From assembly GCF_001989615.1 (NCBI RefSeq), contig NZ_CP019067.1, positions 434,001 to 498,000 of the forward strand: a stretch of 64,000 nt of DNA. The letters run 5' to 3'. The notes beneath the pieces were generated by a model. That model worked only from the letters and a program-made list of their open reading frames with translations, made no database searches and was not told the DNA's origin. A program made the position numbers and the translations under genes. Positions 24,574 through 62,718 of this stretch are shown here, in pieces (positions within the stretch are counted from its first letter, which is position 1; each line of letters opens with the position of its first letter). Source of the DNA: Halorientalis sp. IM1011. GTDB lineage: Archaea; Halobacteriota; Halobacteria; Halobacteriales; Haloarculaceae.

Positions 24574-24803
24574 AGTACGTACAATCTGGATTTCAAAATC
24601 ATAAATCTACCGTATGTTTCGGTGAACCGACCGGTCGAGGCGGCGTCAGCCGGTTTCAGTATTGAGAACAGAAGTGCCCAAATAGTCGGGATGGATCGTG
24701 AACCGCACCGCTCGGAAACGGTGAGAGACGCAGAAATTATGGACTCGCGGGGGCGTGGTGTCCTGACGGTTCGCCGTAATGGTGGGTTCGTGTCGAGTCA
24801 TGG

Positions 24804-25835
24804 TTAGTCGGATCGTGAATCGTTGACCTCGTCGAGAAGCTCGCGACGCAGCTGCATCCGCTCGCGCTCCGAGCGCTCGTCGTAGTGTTCCTCGAGGACC
24901 TCGCGGCTCGCGTTCATCCGATCACTGACGACCTCTTCGGGCGCACCTTCGCGGAGGTGCCAGGTGATCGAGCCCCGACGGACGGCGTGGGGCGACCGCG
25001 ACGACGGGCATTCGGTCCAACTCTCCCGGTAGTTCGCTGCATCACACGAGTCTGGATCTTTGTCGTGCGGGCACTCCTTGCCGAGAACGCAGGGCCGGGT
25101 CCAGTCGTAGAGCGTCCGTCGGATGGGAGCCGCGGTCAGCCGGCCGAACTCACTGGAGATCAGCGGACGCCGACCGTGATTGTCGACGACGTCGTAGCGA
25201 TGGTATTCGACGTAGTCGTCGATAACCTGCGTGTAGTACTCGCCGACGGCGATCTGCCGTTCCGCTGCTTTCCCGTTCTTCAGCGGCGTTTCCGTCTCCG
25301 GTCGATGGCGAATCTGTAGCGCTTGCTCGTCCGAGAACCAGTCGTCCAGGTCGATTGCGCGGAGCGTCCCCAACCGAATTCCCGTATGCCACAGGATCGC
25401 CACGATCACGTGGTCGCGACTGGCGTAGGCGAAGTCGTCGAGATAGTCCAGAATTTCGTTCGCCCGATCCTCGGAGAGCTGGATGTCTCGACTGGCCTCC
25501 TGTTCGTCGAGTTCGGGAAGCATCACTCGCTCGCGCATCCCAGACTCGACGGCGTCGATGCTGGCACAGAACTCCAGGAACTTCCGGAGTGTCGCCAGAA
25601 TGCCGCGGAGCGTCACGGCGTTCACGTCCTGTCCCTTCCAGGTTCGGTAGTGGTGGAGGTCGCGGCCGGTCAGGTCGTTCAGATTGTCGACGTCGTTCTT
25701 CTCGCACCACTCGACGAAAGAGTCGAGTCGGTAGCGCTGGTTGCTGAGGCTCTTCTCCGAGAGTTCCGACTCCCGGTGCTTCAGGTACAGGTCGACGGCT
25801 TTGAACGGCGAAAGCGGCTCCAGGTCGTCACTCAT
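24804..25835 (-). CDS. Tyrosine recombinase / XerC-D-like integrase
   Basis: A 343-residue site-specific recombinase with an N-terminal SAM-like core-binding domain (about residues 10-95) and a catalytic domain. Catalytic residues visible are Arg in HTGIRLGT (about R154), His and Arg in SPHAVRRG (about H283, R286), and the nucleophile Tyr in EEHYDE (about Y318). A Cys-rich insertion (CVLGKECPHDKDPDSC region) is typical of haloarchaeal integrases. The start at 25835 overlaps the stop of the upstream gene by eight bases (ATGAGTGA), so both are co-translated. It marks the left side of the accessory region and probably integrates that element. Confidence 0.88.
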   Translation of the reverse strand: MSDDLEPLSPFKAVDLYLKHRESELSEKSLSNQRYRLDSFVEWCEKNDVDNLNDLTGRDLHHYRTWKGQDVNAVTLRGILATLRKFLEFCASIDAVESGMRERVMLPELDEQEASRDIQLSEDRANEILDYLDDFAYASRDHVIVAILWHTGIRLGTLRAIDLDDWFSDEQALQIRHRPETETPLKNGKAAERQIAVGEYYTQVIDDYVEYHRYDVVDNHGRRPLISSEFGRLTAAPIRRTLYDWTRPCVLGKECPHDKDPDSCDAANYRESWTECPSSRSPHAVRRGSITWHLREGAPEEVVSDRMNASREVLEEHYDERSERERMQLRRELLDEVNDSRSD

Positions 25836-26340
25836 TCCAATCACCGCCGCCACCTAGACTCGCTGGCTCCGGGGCAGAGAGATGGTCTCTCTCGATGCCA
25901 CCGTCGGCAGTCAGATCCAGACAGCTGGTTCCATCTCGGTTACCAGGGCCGTCAGTTCCGTCCTCGGTGTACTGCGTGTGATCTTCGAGGTATCCTCTGT
26001 GTAGGTCCCAGAGCCACTCGCGTTCGGGCTTACAGTAGCTGCCGTCGGTCGACATCTGTGGCATATGAGGGACGCTATTCGGCCACTCCGCTGTCTCGTC
26101 GACCAAGGCAGTCGGCACAGCCCGACCCTCGTGCGGGCACGCCGCGAACGTCCTCACGATCGCCAGCGCGTTGTCCGGGTGGACGTACCGGACGGCGACA
26201 TCACCCTCTGGAGTGACGCGATACGACACGGCGAAATACCGCGCATATCCCCGCGTGTCCGGGTGACGGCCGCCGGACGCCCACTCCGCTGGTAGGCGAT
26301 TCCACTGCTGCTCGTCGACCGAGAAACCGTCTGCCGTCAC
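25828..26340 (-). CDS. Hypothetical protein co-transcribed with integrase
   Basis: A 170-residue soluble acidic protein of unknown family with an N-terminal mixed alpha/beta part (YARYFAVSYRVTPEGDVAVRYVHPDNALAIVRTF) and a polar C-terminal tail rich in Gly, Asp and Ser. Its end overlaps the integrase start by eight bases, so the two are translationally coupled. A role in integration or excision control is possible from context alone. Confidence 0.6.
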   Translation of the reverse strand: MTADGFSVDEQQWNRLPAEWASGGRHPDTRGYARYFAVSYRVTPEGDVAVRYVHPDNALAIVRTFAACPHEGRAVPTALVDETAEWPNSVPHMPQMSTDGSYCKPEREWLWDLHRGYLEDHTQYTEDGTDGPGNRDGTSCLDLTADGGIERDHLSAPEPASLGGGGDWNE

Positions 26341-26410
26341 GGGCTATACCTCCCAGACTGTCTTGGAGTCTGGTTCGCGATTCCGTCGAACCGTGCCCCG
26401 TTAGAGTTAG

Positions 26411-26545
26411 GGGCTCGAATTTCGTTCGTACACATGGCTCATCGAGGGCCCGGTGCGCGCCGTTCTCCTGGCAGGGAAGGGGCGCGCGCCGCACCACATT
26501 TCACGTCGGGGAATCGAACCCCGTTCGTACCACCAGGCACGTGAA
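26411..26545 (-). other. tRNA T-arm-like sequence with acceptor-like stem, plus degenerate copy
   Basis: On the minus strand, 26523-26507 forms a perfect 5-bp stem with a 7-base TTCGATT loop, exactly a tRNA T arm. It is immediately followed by ACGTGAA (26506-26500), which pairs over seven bases with TTCACGT (26545-26539). Only 15 bases lie where the D and anticodon arms should be. A degraded copy of the same region (sharing TCGAA and GTTCGTAC in order) is at about 26411-26440. These may be remnants of an attachment site or of a tRNA captured by the integrase. A complete tRNA cannot be folded. Confidence 0.45.
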
Positions 26546-26979
26546 CTCTCGGCGTGCAGTCGCTCAGACGCCGACTGCTCGTATCGACGTCCGACGTCCA
26601 TCGTGATTTTCGCGCTGGCCACCGTGGGTGGCCCTACACTCCCCAAGTAGATCTTCGGCGGAGGAGTGACAGAGATGCCACTCTCGGCCGAAGACTTAAT
26701 TGGGCAGTGCCAGAAGGAAAGGGTGGTCAGGCGGCCTTTCCCTGGCGCACTGGTTTCCTAGTGGCAACGTTTGAACCTAGTGTAATAAAGCTAACCCAAC
26801 TACTAGCAATTCTGTGTATTAATTCTTACACTGAGACAATCATACAGTATCGTATTCAGACCAACCTTGCCTTTATAGATAACTAATATGGTATATTGGT
26901 GTGGAATCCAGGCTTGGAGAGGGTTTATCAAGCCATGGGTAGTGACCGTACACACGCTGTATCGTAGTGTACTCCAAGA
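26546..26979. other. Non-coding stretch between integrase operon and first cargo gene
   Basis: With 26341-26545 this gives about 640 bases without a convincing gene. GC content falls sharply after about 26,780, and the last 200 bases are A/T-rich, with several candidate promoter boxes (for example TTTATAG near 26871) ahead of the winged-helix gene at 26980. Confidence 0.5.
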
Positions 26980-27400: not shown

Positions 27401-27928
27401 ATGGGAAGGACACCTGTACGGTATGCTTGGCCCCTTCGTTTGGGTGTTATCTTGGGATGTGTTTTGATGGGCTTGGCTCTTCAACTGAGCTATCTCTATC
27501 TGATCCTGTTCAATTCACGTGGATCTGGTGAGATGGAACTCGTGTGGGCAGGGTACACGATACTCCTGCTCGCCATCTCATGGGTTGTCGTTTCGCGGGT
27601 CGTATTTGACCGTATTCGCCAAGCAGCAGGCGGTCTACTGGTGAGTGGTATCGTCTGTTTCTTCCTCGCCGTCAGTACCGCTGGTGTTGGCTGTCTCGTT
27701 AGCACGACTGGTGGACAATTGGGTCCGGTTCCCGACTTCGTATTCTCGACTGGTGAACTGCTGGGAATTCCATCACCGATGATCGGATTCGAGACTTCCG
27801 ATGGCCACTGTGTCTCTTCCAGCCACCTCATCTTCTGGGTACTCGCATACGGGTTTCTCGTCGCCGGACTCTGGTTCGATCGCGGCGTGGACAAAGCGAT
27901 CTCCTCTGTGAGCAGGATGGTGGACTGA
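27401..27928 (+). CDS. Hypothetical four-helix membrane protein
   Basis: A 175-residue protein with four hydrophobic segments at about residues 13-36, 46-66, 77-100 and 145-163 and a polar loop with two cysteines (GHCVSS and VGCLVS) between helices three and four. No family is recognised. Codon use is less GC-biased than in the chromosomal part, fitting acquired DNA. No operon partner is visible. Confidence 0.5.
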   Translation: MGRTPVRYAWPLRLGVILGCVLMGLALQLSYLYLILFNSRGSGEMELVWAGYTILLLAISWVVVSRVVFDRIRQAAGGLLVSGIVCFFLAVSTAGVGCLVSTTGGQLGPVPDFVFSTGELLGIPSPMIGFETSDGHCVSSSHLIFWVLAYGFLVAGLWFDRGVDKAISSVSRMVD

Positions 27929-28179
27929 CTATCAATGATTTCCTTGGTTAGTGGGCAGGACGAACTGACAATTCGTCTCACTGTGGATCTAGCACTGGAT
28001 ATCCAAGAGACTAGGTTCCACAAATCGCTTCCAAGGGTGCCTTGAGTCTCGCCACTTGACTCTCGTCAGTATAATTGGTCGAATAGAACTAACAATACGA
28101 ATAGAACCGATAGACGGGGCGTGTTTTTCGACCACCAATCCACAACTTACTTTCTTCCCCTATACCGAGCGAAACCAAC

Positions 28180-54874: not shown

Positions 54875-55120
54875 TCAGACCGTCAGCTTCCTGGTCCGAA
54901 GGGCACAGGCACGGCAGTAGTTCTCGCCGTCCGCTCCGGAACGGTTGTCGCACCACGACTGGCCATGCAGACAGACGCCGGCGGTGTAGCAGTGGAAACA
55001 GGGCAGGTCGTCGGTATTGTCGCCGGCGACATCGGGACCGGGACAGTCCGGCTTGTCGTCAACGCACGGGGTCTGGTTCGAGATCGATTCGACAGTCGCG
55101 GTCTGCTGCGTCGTTGCCAT
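54875..55120 (-). CDS. Cys-rich small protein, leader-motif member A
   Basis: An 81-residue protein with at least nine cysteines in its C-terminal two thirds (C-x2-C pairs CFHC and CRAC), suggesting a zinc-binding fold. The ATG at 55120 follows the conserved leader motif (see the leader entry). An in-frame GTG at 55132 would extend it by VNLP. It is divergent from the SWIM-type gene whose start carries the same motif. Function unknown. Confidence 0.55.
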   Translation of the reverse strand: MATTQQTATVESISNQTPCVDDKPDCPGPDVAGDNTDDLPCFHCYTAGVCLHGQSWCDNRSGADGENYCRACALRTRKLTV

Positions 55121-55166
55121 TGGTAGGTTCACAGGCCTTTCGACCTACCTGATACAATGGCAGGTA
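55121..55166 (-). promoter_or_regulatory. Conserved leader motif, copy A
   Basis: Reading the minus strand, CCTGCC is followed after 12 bases by a GAAA-tetraloop hairpin, AGGTC/GGCCT (55146-55133, five pairs including one G-U), and then GTGAACCTACCA before the ATG at 55120. The same layout recurs at 55214 and 56979. Confidence 0.65.
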
Positions 55167-55213
55167 GAAACTTAATACCATCGTTTTCTGCTTTTTCGAT
55201 ACTACTAAGTACG

Positions 55214-55257
55214 AACCTGCCATAATAGCAAGTAGGCGAAAGCCTGTGAACCTACCA
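55214..55257 (+). promoter_or_regulatory. Conserved leader motif, copy B
   Basis: CCTGCC, 12 bases, then AGGC-GAAA-GCCT (55234-55245), then GTGAACCTACCA directly before the ATG at 55258. An alternative 5-bp pairing GTAGG/CCTAC would compete with the tetraloop stem. Confidence 0.65.
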
Positions 55258-58364: not shown

Positions 58365-58406
58365 GGCCCGACTGGACGGCCCGCGGTTCGACTCCGCGAC
58401 GGGCCC
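58365..58406 (+). other. Acceptor/T-arm-like hairpin structure
   Basis: A T-arm-like hairpin, CGCGG (58382-58386), TTCGACT loop, CCGCG (58394-58398), is enclosed by GGCCCG (58365-58370) and CGGGCC (58400-58405). Ten bases stand where the D and anticodon arms would be. The general plan matches the structure near 26,500, but the high GC makes such pairing easier by chance. It lies between two genes of the module. Confidence 0.35.
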
Positions 58407-58420
58407 GTTATGGACAGACC

Positions 58421-58918
58421 ATGCCCCAATCCAGAACAGAACACCTAACCACCGACGCGACCGAGGCGGCAGGTAACGATCAGCCAATGCCCGCTGAACC
58501 TACCACCGGGACAGGCGCCGCGCCGGAGCTCGTCGACGTCGTGGAATTATTCACCTCTAACAACGCGGTCCGCTGGTCGAGCGCGCCGGCGGTCCGGGCG
58601 GCGAATCTGCATGACCACAAGTCGCTGCTGTTCGCGCCTCATCCCGACCGCCAGGCGCTCGTAGCGGTCGCAACGACGGAGGCGATAGACGGCCGGTCCC
58701 AGGAGAACGCCGTCCGGATACGCTCCGATCGCGGCAACCACGCGCTGCCGAAGGAACTCCTCGAGCATCTCGGAGCCGACTTCGACGCCGTCGACACGGG
58801 CTCGCTCCGGGTCGCCATCTTCGCGACGGATGGCCTCCTGGTGTTCCAGCCAGCGACGACGGTCGCAGAGTGTCCGGTACCGGCCGATCTGATCGAGGCG
58901 ACCCGAGCGGGTCAATAG
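58421..58918 (+). CDS. AbrB-like small protein (tentative)
   Basis: A 165-residue protein with a disordered N-terminal third. The C-terminal half (NAVRIRSDRGNHALPKELLEHLGADF, then GSLRVAIFATDGLLVFQP) resembles a swapped-hairpin AbrB/MazE-type DNA-binding fold (VxxRSDRG-LPKELxxxLG). If so it is a regulator or antitoxin-like protein, but no toxin gene is next to it. The ATG at 58421 is used; one at 58488 is possible. It follows the hairpin at 58365. Confidence 0.5.
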   Translation: MPQSRTEHLTTDATEAAGNDQPMPAEPTTGTGAAPELVDVVELFTSNNAVRWSSAPAVRAANLHDHKSLLFAPHPDRQALVAVATTEAIDGRSQENAVRIRSDRGNHALPKELLEHLGADFDAVDTGSLRVAIFATDGLLVFQPATTVAECPVPADLIEATRAGQ

Positions 58919-60252: not shown

Positions 60253-62718
60253 GTGCCGCTTACCGCTCTCTTCGACACTCCAGCGGTTAAGTCGCCGTTC
60301 ATTTCGTCCGGCAATCTCGCCGACGAAGAGCGACTAGTCTACTTCCCGGCCACGACGAGAGTACACGCAGGCCTTATCAGCGCGATGGTAGAGCGTGGCC
60401 AGGATCTGGTCATCGTGACACCGTCCGACAGAGCAGAATTTCTGCACCTCCACGCCCTAGAAGCTCTCTTCGGACCCAAGGTAGATGGCCGCAACGCGGT
60501 CTTCTTGCTCAGCTCCAACACAGAATTCCGTGAGCGGTTCCGACAGCTTGCTCCGACGTCAATGCGTCCACCACACGACAAGTCTCGCTACGCGCGTGAG
60601 GAGACCCCGATAGCTAACGTGACGAAAGATGGGTCACTAGCGACAGTAACGAAGAACCTGAACCATCCCGACAAGCCTGCGCGGTTTCTCTTCTCGTACA
60701 CGAGTACGCGTATTCCTTCGAACGATGTCGGAGACCGAATTCGGTGTGTAATCTACGACGACTCTGTAAAGTACGACGAAGAACGCCTCCTCCGATTACG
60801 GAAATGGAAACAGCGAAACGACGTGCCCGCAATAGTCTACTTTACGAGCAATCCGACGTCAGACCTCGTGGAGAAACTACGTGGACGAGCATTTCTCTGG
60901 GCGTGGCCACCTCGGCTGTTGTCTGCCGTAGTCAAGAGTGATCAAGATAGTGGGCACGAGTGGATAGGTACCGACGAGGAAGTGAGTCCGACAACCCGCC
61001 GTGCCCAGGTCGTCGCCAGGCGGGAGCAGAACCGCGTTTCGGGCCTCTCCATCGAGGTCCATACGTGCGGTGACGGTGACCTCCTCACAGCCCTGAAACG
61101 GGCAAACGACCGTCGGGCGAGGTTCGAGTACTTGGCACGAGAGTTGAACGCCGACATCCTCAAGCGTGGCCAGCAGCTTGTGCGGTACGCTCTAGGGAGT
61201 TTCCGCGAACTCTTGACCCCACTTGACGTGGCCGACTTTCACGCCCGGCGGACGACGATATCGAGCCGGCTTGCGCAGCTTGATCGGTTCGCGGGCCGCA
61301 TTGCGTCTGATCCCGAGGCGAATCCCGCAACCGGCACGTTCCGGGACGTAGTCTCAGCTCTCGAAGAGCTGGAGGAACTGTGGGACAATGTACCTGCAAG
61401 CGACAAGAAACAGGGCGTGCTCGTCGATAACCTGCTCTACGGTGCGCTCGACAGGGGGGACTCGATTTCCGTCGTCACGGCGACAGAAAGTCAACAGCAA
61501 GCACTCACGACGTTCCTCCAGTCTGAGCACGCTGCTCTCTACCGTGACCTGGGTGACGACCTATCGATACACGACACTCGCAGTGTTCGCTCGGCCGACC
61601 CGACGGACCACGTCGTCCTCTACGGCGCACTTCGTTGGGGCGACCGTGATCTCCTCCGCACCGACGTCGCAACAGACGCTATCGTCTTGGCGTATCCCAT
61701 CGAGATGGGCCTCCTCCACTCACAGGTGGACGCCTTGGAGGATTCCTTCGAGTCGATTGCGGACAAAACGTTCTGGAAGGTGATCGACAAGCTGACCCGT
61801 ATCACTACGGACGAACGCGCGGACGTCGAACGTGTGAACATTGACCTCCCCGAGTACGAAGAACCCAATACGAGCGATCTCGGTGAAGACATCTCCGTAG
61901 ACGAGGCCGAAGGAGAAGACTTGGGCGAAATCGTGCGAGGGTACGAGACAGATTACGAGGATAGTGAAGACTTCGACCCAACCGAGTACGAGACGTCCTC
62001 CACGCACCAGACGACTACCTCTGGGGGACAGACCGAAACCGACTGTCTCGACGTCCACTTTGACGGCGGCCTTTCCATGTACCTCCGCAAAGACACCGAA
62101 GTGTACACAGTACGCGAAGGCCACGACAAACTGTTCAAGAAGACCGCTTCGCGCCTCAAGGAACACGACGTCATCGTCCACCTGGGGGACACCGACGAGA
62201 TGCGTGACCAGCTGTACGCGTTGATTCGTGAACGCGGGGATGTCGGACTGTACTACTATGCGAACTTGTGGAAAGTCAACCTTGAAGCCGCCTTGGAGGA
62301 GACCGGTGACGATCTAGACGACTTCGTGGAGAAGATGGAACAACAAGGTCTAGACAAGAACCGCGGCACCTACGAGCGGTGGTACAAGATGGAAGTTCAC
62401 CGGACGCGATCGAAGAAGAGCTTCTGGGCCATCGCAGATGCGTACGATCTAGACGGCGTGAAAGAGAACTTCAGCCAGGTGTGGAACGCCGTCCAGGAGA
62501 TGGAGACTATATACAGTCGTCTGAAGAAAGCACTCAGACAGACAGCACTTCGATCTGCCGCCGACGGAACACTGGACGACGTGATGCTGTCGGAGAGTCC
62601 GGACATCCGGCTCAGTGACTTCGAGATCGGGAAGTACCTCTTCCGACTCGAAGTCCAATCGATAGAAGAGGGTGTCAAGGCCAAGAGTTCACAGATAGTA
62701 CGACTACGTGGGTTCTAA
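60253..62718 (+). CDS. DISARM DrmE-like protein (tentative)
   Basis: An 821-residue protein starting at a GTG. The N-terminal part (about residues 30-240) has helicase-like strands (LVYFPATTRVHAGL, LVIVTPSDRAEF, IRCVIYDDS and PAIVYFTSNPTSD) without a Walker A motif. The middle is helical. The phrase VVLYGALRWGDRDLL ... IVLAYPIEMGLLHSQV near residue 455 and a C-terminal helical domain after an acidic linker resemble DISARM DrmE proteins as I recall them. The next gene looks DrmA-like, as in class 2 DISARM (drmE, drmA, drmB, drmC, drmMII). An unrelated defence protein remains possible. Confidence 0.55.
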   Translation: MPLTALFDTPAVKSPFISSGNLADEERLVYFPATTRVHAGLISAMVERGQDLVIVTPSDRAEFLHLHALEALFGPKVDGRNAVFLLSSNTEFRERFRQLAPTSMRPPHDKSRYAREETPIANVTKDGSLATVTKNLNHPDKPARFLFSYTSTRIPSNDVGDRIRCVIYDDSVKYDEERLLRLRKWKQRNDVPAIVYFTSNPTSDLVEKLRGRAFLWAWPPRLLSAVVKSDQDSGHEWIGTDEEVSPTTRRAQVVARREQNRVSGLSIEVHTCGDGDLLTALKRANDRRARFEYLARELNADILKRGQQLVRYALGSFRELLTPLDVADFHARRTTISSRLAQLDRFAGRIASDPEANPATGTFRDVVSALEELEELWDNVPASDKKQGVLVDNLLYGALDRGDSISVVTATESQQQALTTFLQSEHAALYRDLGDDLSIHDTRSVRSADPTDHVVLYGALRWGDRDLLRTDVATDAIVLAYPIEMGLLHSQVDALEDSFESIADKTFWKVIDKLTRITTDERADVERVNIDLPEYEEPNTSDLGEDISVDEAEGEDLGEIVRGYETDYEDSEDFDPTEYETSSTHQTTTSGGQTETDCLDVHFDGGLSMYLRKDTEVYTVREGHDKLFKKTASRLKEHDVIVHLGDTDEMRDQLYALIRERGDVGLYYYANLWKVNLEAALEETGDDLDDFVEKMEQQGLDKNRGTYERWYKMEVHRTRSKKSFWAIADAYDLDGVKENFSQVWNAVQEMETIYSRLKKALRQTALRSAADGTLDDVMLSESPDIRLSDFEIGKYLFRLEVQSIEEGVKAKSSQIVRLRGF

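Follow-up and report, generated by a model that had tools for sequence, protein, structure and literature searches.

A tRNA-like minihelix ahead of a haloarchaeal integrase operon and the recurrence of its t-element family before start codons

The integrase operon, its leader and the attachment site

The window, that is, the whole stretch of 64,000 nucleotides that was analysed, carries an integrase operon on its minus strand (Table 1). The integrase is of the IntSNJ2 type, as indicated both by its similarity and Pfam integrase domain and by the presence of an attachment core, beside int, at a tRNA 3' end. Two ORFs that lack a Pfam match, of 32 and 170 aa, are located upstream of int; the longer one is possibly an accessory protein, and a paralogue that is 30% identical to it is encoded near the other end of the element, beside tRNA-Ala (G000:C1:521611-521931). 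These ORFs are preceded by a structured leader that contains a minihelix resembling the top half of a tRNA.

Table 1. Positions of the features discussed in the text, numbered along the window.
Feature	Position	Strand	Remarks
att core, 13 bp TGGACTCGCGGGG	24740..24752	.	same sequence as the tRNA-Ala(GGC) 3' end, G000:C1:522571-522583
IntSNJ2-type tyrosine integrase, 349 aa	24804..25853	-	47.7% identity to the integrase of virus SNJ2; PF00589 and PF02899
170-aa ORF	25828..26340	-	upstream of int and overlapping it; possible accessory protein
Short ORF, 32 aa (MCTNEIRAPNSNGARFDGIANQTPRQSGRYSP)	26337..26435	-	its stop and the start of the next ORF share GTGA; short ORFs likewise in other leaders
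GC-rich hairpin	26451..26491	-	directly 3' of the t-element; corresponds to the hairpin seen in other leaders of integrase operons
t-element	26500..26545	-	acceptor 26539-26545 with 26500-26506; spacer 26524-26538; T-arm 26507-26523; recurrence by covariance model
Array of strong hairpins and inverted repeats	26601..26760	-	upstream of the t-element; one of the three stretches of the window with the lowest fold z-scores
Second t-element	58365..58405	+	same integrated element; in a gap between two same-strand ORFs
165-aa ORF	58421..58918	+	ATG 15 nt after the second t-element; no Pfam match

Read 5' to 3' from 26545 to 26500, the minihelix consists of TTCACGT, a 15-nt spacer (GCCTGGTGGTACGAA), a T-arm (CGGGG, TTCGATT, CCCCG) and ACGTGAA. 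All seven acceptor positions pair, the T-arm has 5 bp and a 7-nt loop (TTCGATT), and the junction between acceptor and T-arm is of zero length. A preliminary description, made from the sequence, had reported on this strand a T arm with this loop, directly followed by seven bases that pair perfectly with seven bases located 15 bases upstream of it, in the exact stem lengths and junction of a tRNA top half and next to the integrase; each of these points holds, and the feature is linked to the integrase operon. The same description spoke of a structure devoid of both D and anticodon arms, which is accurate for the latter; the spacer, in which a GG is present, could form a small D-arm-like hairpin (GCC UGGU GGU), so that the sole arm that is clearly missing is the anticodon arm. 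An acceptor stem and a T-arm with a tRNA-type T-loop, in the absence of an anticodon arm, are the structural traits of a haloarchaeal t-element. The feature lacks the traits of a tRNA gene, having no anticodon arm and escaping detection by tRNA models: ARAGORN identified no tRNA within the window, and no Rfam match at the gathering score was obtained there.

The minimum-energy fold of the leader retains the T-arm, and not the full acceptor. No other exact copy of the 18-nt T-arm core of the minihelix occurs in the genome, blastn of the window leader against 146 genomes gave a strong match to itself only, and no relatives of this leader were found in plasmids or phages. When 200 sequences of 64 kb were simulated with a first-order Markov model, a minihelix with 7/7 acceptor pairing arose in 4 (mean of 0.02 per window, with spacers of 6-40 allowed), and a single one is therefore unusual, or mildly surprising, yet on its own not decisive. 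A degenerate copy had also been proposed some 90 bases away; a 22-nt direct repeat of 77% identity does lie 99 bp off, at 26410-26431, but it cannot form a T-stem and, as nine further direct-repeat families occupy the same 3-kb stretch, it is best read as chance. In a search for direct relatives of the window sequence, a degenerate 22-nt pattern had no match in IMG/VR, and its 14 scattered and unrelated matches in genome contigs were taken as chance.

The arrangement of t-element, GC-rich hairpin, 32-aa ORF, 170-aa ORF and int represents a diverged form of the plan typical of integrase leaders; in the window, the ATG of the short ORF lies 64 nt past the t-element and another ATG follows the t-element directly. 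The hairpin array further upstream may form the 5' portion of this leader. Within the window as a whole, RNA-fold z-scores were lowest at 55081-55240 (-6.9) and 27881-28040 (-6.15), both on the minus strand.

The att repeat is located just past the integrase stop and before the next gene, and its second copy lies 63.8 kb away; the presence of the 13-bp repeats at both ends delimits an integrated element of approximately 63.8 kb (G000:C1:458740-522570). Its cargo includes TraG/TrwB-like ATPases, a resolvase and a subtilase with a PKD domain, as well as a weak DrmE-like match at 60253-62718. The 3' end of tRNA-Ala was seen by inspection after int in 20 of 20 close integrase relatives (at least 58% identity), with two deviations in detail: in L057 it carries one mismatch, and in L059 the tRNA-Ala is complete and lies on the opposite strand. 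In three named viruses, attP is annotated in the same place, downstream of int.

Recurrence, genomic context and covariation of the t-element family

The decisive evidence for the minihelix is its recurrence elsewhere. A search of the genome for the T-arm led to two 5S rRNA leaders of identical plan. A strict detector applied to 30 integrase loci gave five matches, three of which occupy, in sense orientation, the head of an integrase operon (the window, L050 and L058), a count that is suggestive only, since the loop rule was relaxed to T-N-C-R-A once L058 was known. A covariance model built on two sequences (R1) recovered L050, a second copy in the element of G119, the second t-element of the window (Table 1) and L058. 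With a six-sequence model (R2), 24 full-length matches with E<=1e-4 were obtained in 146 genomes of the family, 18 of them outside the training set, against approximately 0.015 expected, where the 18 include a known 5S leader (G002) and a copy with the same sequence as a training copy (G012, as G021) and where the E-values of R2, as those of R3, are rough owing to a short calibration. Matches of 25.3 bits recur across genomes in the R2 search, and these may be a tRNA. With the R3 model, 392 genomes of the order were searched and 48 matches obtained, spread over 39 genomes, of which 22 lie outside the family, in four others; the context was read for 17 new loci and for those found earlier. When 392 genomes were drawn from the whole phylum, 7 gave a match, all within the order, the draw's number of genomes outside the order not being listed. 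The covariance model also recovers 5S rRNA leaders (L161-L163, with 5S confirmed for L161), and at the gathering threshold Rfam had no match in 12 t-element loci other than the rRNAs of L161.

The family recurs across haloarchaea just before start codons. Among 47 copies, a number that leaves out L143, identical to the window copy, 44 are followed within 70 nt, on the sense strand, by an ATG ORF of 15 codons or more, against 1479 of 4000 random positions (37%), and a longer coding-like ORF accompanies 31 of the 47 in sense and 5 in antisense. The 17 loci of the order-level search behave in like manner, 15 having an ATG ORF and 13 a longer coding-like one. A t-element is expected to stand immediately before the RNA whose 5' end it sets, and the position of the copies before ATG ORFs agrees with this; the window copy does not precede a 5S rRNA, but the integrase operon, while the true 5S leaders sit elsewhere in its genome. 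Location ahead of 5S rRNA, nevertheless, marks the first case in which a t-element was described, and not the structure itself.

SNJ2-type integrases follow the t-element in 9 of 30 examined loci. In the typical integrase leader, a t-element, a GC-rich hairpin, a motif ending in GACCC, the ATG of a short ORF and int succeed one another, the leader hairpins having been picked by eye when integrase loci were compared. Elsewhere, t-elements are found ahead of genes for a DUF1102 protein, a VWA protein, a weakly camelysin-like protein, a pilin and a DNA methylase. In six loci (L216, L218, L220, L222, L223 and L224) the t-element is followed by a short CCCC/GGGG hairpin; the proteins of this set are DUF1102, VWA or similar signal-peptide proteins from several haloarchaeal families. 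Viewed from the integrase side, a t-element stands at the operon head in 8 of 60 loci examined, and none was found before int when integrase regions from viruses (8), plasmids (5) and IMG/VR (6) were searched, the last six obtained by alignment search (none by means of a single integrase protein); these figures describe a recurring but optional module. A blastn search of plasmids with an integrase leader gave no match. By eye, strongly structured leaders without a recognisable t-element were seen upstream of related int genes in L041, L053, L054 and L057.

Several copies can also share an operon: L171 contains three t-elements within 1.5 kb, each placed 4-15 nt before an ATG. Pairs on the same strand, 0.7-3.7 kb apart, were observed at G364:C31:67139/68858, G025:C34:82442/84139, G274:C1:616011/619670 and G255:C1:1927060/1927732, an arrangement consistent with punctuation of one operon.

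In an alignment of 29 distinct copies (A9), 95.5% of cells form standard pairs and 10 of 12 pairs display two-sided changes, counts that are inflated by the fitting of the alignment to the model. The covariation of 0.683 compares with 0.152 (sd 0.022) in shuffled alignments, none of the 500 shuffles reaching the observed value, and with at most 0.115 when slid. A9 excludes the 5S leaders L161-L163 as well as L165 and L167, tRNAs by inspection, and the acceptor is misaligned in A1, A2 and A3, which were kept out of the models. RNAalifold applied to an independent MAFFT alignment of eight integrase leaders predicts the T-arm, with compensatory changes, and the GC-rich hairpin; on that of nine plasmid-gene leaders, to which named Haloarcula plasmids contribute six (pHH126 of H. 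hispanica N601 among them), it predicts acceptor, D-like and T helices. Two-sided changes affect 3 of 14 named pairs in these plasmid leaders, and some of their measures fail against shuffles (further pair types, 441/500; pairs with a two-sided change, 96/500). The GG of the spacer is nearly constant across copies, and may mimic the D-loop of the tRNA elbow.

A proposed processing signal and its rival, a regulatory leader

Passages of PMC4326828 and PMC3296008 describe the cleavage by tRNase Z of a tRNA-like structure located before 5S rRNA in Haloferax, for which the former gives the name 't-element'. According to passages of PMC4326828 and PMC4946936, Haloferax cells process t-elements that flank an introduced foreign RNA, so that in engineered constructs the fold is enough to specify a cut. 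By analogy, the best reading, at about even odds, is that the feature of the window is a t-element that acts as an RNA-processing signal, a form of tRNA-like punctuation, in the leader of the integrase operon. Upon transcription of the operon, the fold would be recognised by the tRNA-processing enzymes of the host, with tRNase Z cutting 3' of the acceptor and RNase P perhaps cutting 5' of it; the cut message would thus have the 5' end of the downstream cistron set by the t-element. For integrase leaders, this would place the new 5' end at the GC-rich hairpin and short ORF, offering a route by which integrase expression might be coupled or limited. Against this reading count the small share of integrase loci with a copy at the operon head, the failure to find one in the virus, plasmid and IMG/VR regions, and the incomplete acceptor in the minimum-energy fold of the window leader. 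A broader proposal, advanced tentatively, is that half-tRNA mimics punctuate mRNA in haloarchaea, and especially in mobile elements, with a host tRNA-processing enzyme cutting polycistronic transcripts at each t-element and thereby generating the 5' ends of cistrons such as integrase, secreted-protein, pilin and plasmid genes.

The main rival to a processing signal is an uncut cis-regulatory leader, in which the tRNA mimic would bind a protein or the ribosome, or switch between helices, and so control translation of the integrase operon. This possibility deserves consideration, although it appears somewhat unlikely. The hairpin and short ORF are conserved after the t-element in the eight aligned integrase leaders, and RNAalifold pairs the 3' strand of the acceptor, GGGTC, with the GACCC before the ATG (columns 59-63/125-129), which excludes formation of the acceptor. 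In addition, work by Holzle in 2012 reportedly included tests of further tRNA-like elements in Haloferax, for which no cleavage in vitro is said to have been seen, a result that would also speak against a general role in processing. The GGGTC/GACCC helix, however, displays no compensatory change, whereas acceptor pairs vary on both sides; this alternative pairing is missing both in the window copy and in the leaders of secreted-protein genes, and the plan of the t-element equals that of the 5S leader, a known cleavage site.

Other explanations fare considerably worse. A chance hairpin within a GC-rich leader is very improbable: one in fifty simulated windows does hold such a structure, but the excess of copies outside the training set, the occurrence of copies in other families, the second copy within the same element and the strong sense-strand bias all oppose it. 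It is equally hard to regard the minihelix as a tRNA pseudogene, or as an unusual functional tRNA without arms; the geometry of T-arm and acceptor and the large tRNA cluster of the host genome speak for such an origin, but there is no anticodon arm, neither ARAGORN nor the Rfam tRNA model reports the feature, and its acceptors covary ahead of genes in many unrelated contexts. The cluster in question, at G000:C1:2240734-2244715, packs about two dozen tRNA genes into 4 kb, some with unusual first bases, and is perhaps of viral origin.

The minihelix is not the attachment site of the element. That it might be a shortened tRNA-like att core or a captured tRNA 3' fragment of the integrase, as the preliminary description had suggested, is scarcely credible, notwithstanding the use of tRNA 3' ends by the neighbouring integrase, the likeness of the minihelix T-arm to its counterpart in tRNA-Ala, the true target (15 of 17 bases, compared by eye), and the tRNA-like attP that virus HF2, in passages of PMC8707807, carries in its int module: the real att, already sufficient to refute the idea for this element, is the direct repeat at 24740-24752 shared with tRNA-Ala(GGC), an outcome that the description had itself named as refuting its suggestion; the minihelix is not duplicated exactly at the other boundary of the element or within any host tRNA, none of 70 tRNA hits in the genome matching its 3' end (best, 20/31 bases); and t-elements also stand ahead of genes unrelated to integrases.

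Relation to known systems

The closest relative of the proposed processing signal is the 5S-rRNA t-element of haloarchaea, cut by tRNase Z (Holzle 2008, 2012, as cited in PMC4326828, PMC3296008 and PMC7714728). Both comprise an acceptor stem and a T-arm, have no anticodon arm and carry a GG in a short spacer; both stand directly before the RNA to be released, and the same covariance model recovers them. They differ in that the copies described here precede protein genes or integrase operons, in that acceptor and spacer are not the same, and in that cleavage is here a prediction. In a literature search that covered mostly non-subscription sources, in the form of titles, beginnings of abstracts and passages, no description of t-elements as mRNA leaders was found; what appears new here is the known t-element as the leader of integrase operons and other genes.

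Halovirus HF2, as portrayed in passages of PMC8707807, likewise unites a tRNA-like sequence, a small protein gene (for a CxxC protein) and an integrase in one transcription unit. Its tRNA-like sequence, according to these passages, is the 3' part of a host tRNA (a match of 57 nt) and acts as attP, whereas that of the window matches no tRNA and its att lies elsewhere. Virus SNJ2 (record OP012469) shares with the window the integrase family and an att just downstream of int. No t-element was found in the region of the SNJ2 record that was examined, and the accessory ORFs differ.

In Haloferax volcanii, tRNA-like elements were reportedly predicted genome-wide by Holzle in 2012, and the idea of tRNA-like structures outside tRNA genes is common to that work and to the present one. 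To our knowledge, neither a recurrent mRNA-leader family with covariation nor an association with integrases has been reported for those elements. Should the family turn out to be uncut, it would constitute a widespread class of structured leaders that precede integrase and surface-protein genes and for which Rfam, at the gathering threshold, gave no match in the 12 loci searched. Either reading can be addressed in genetically tractable haloarchaea, a copy being present on plasmid pHH126 of Haloarcula hispanica N601.

In mitochondria, tRNAs located between cistrons mark the sites at which polycistronic RNA is cut. The organelle employs real tRNAs for this purpose, while the haloarchaeal elements are half-tRNA mimics whose cutting is proposed. 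If they are indeed cut, archaea would possess a tRNA-like punctuation of mRNA, a device so far linked chiefly to organelles, and mobile elements would be shaping their own transcripts by hijacking a tRNA enzyme that is essential to their host.
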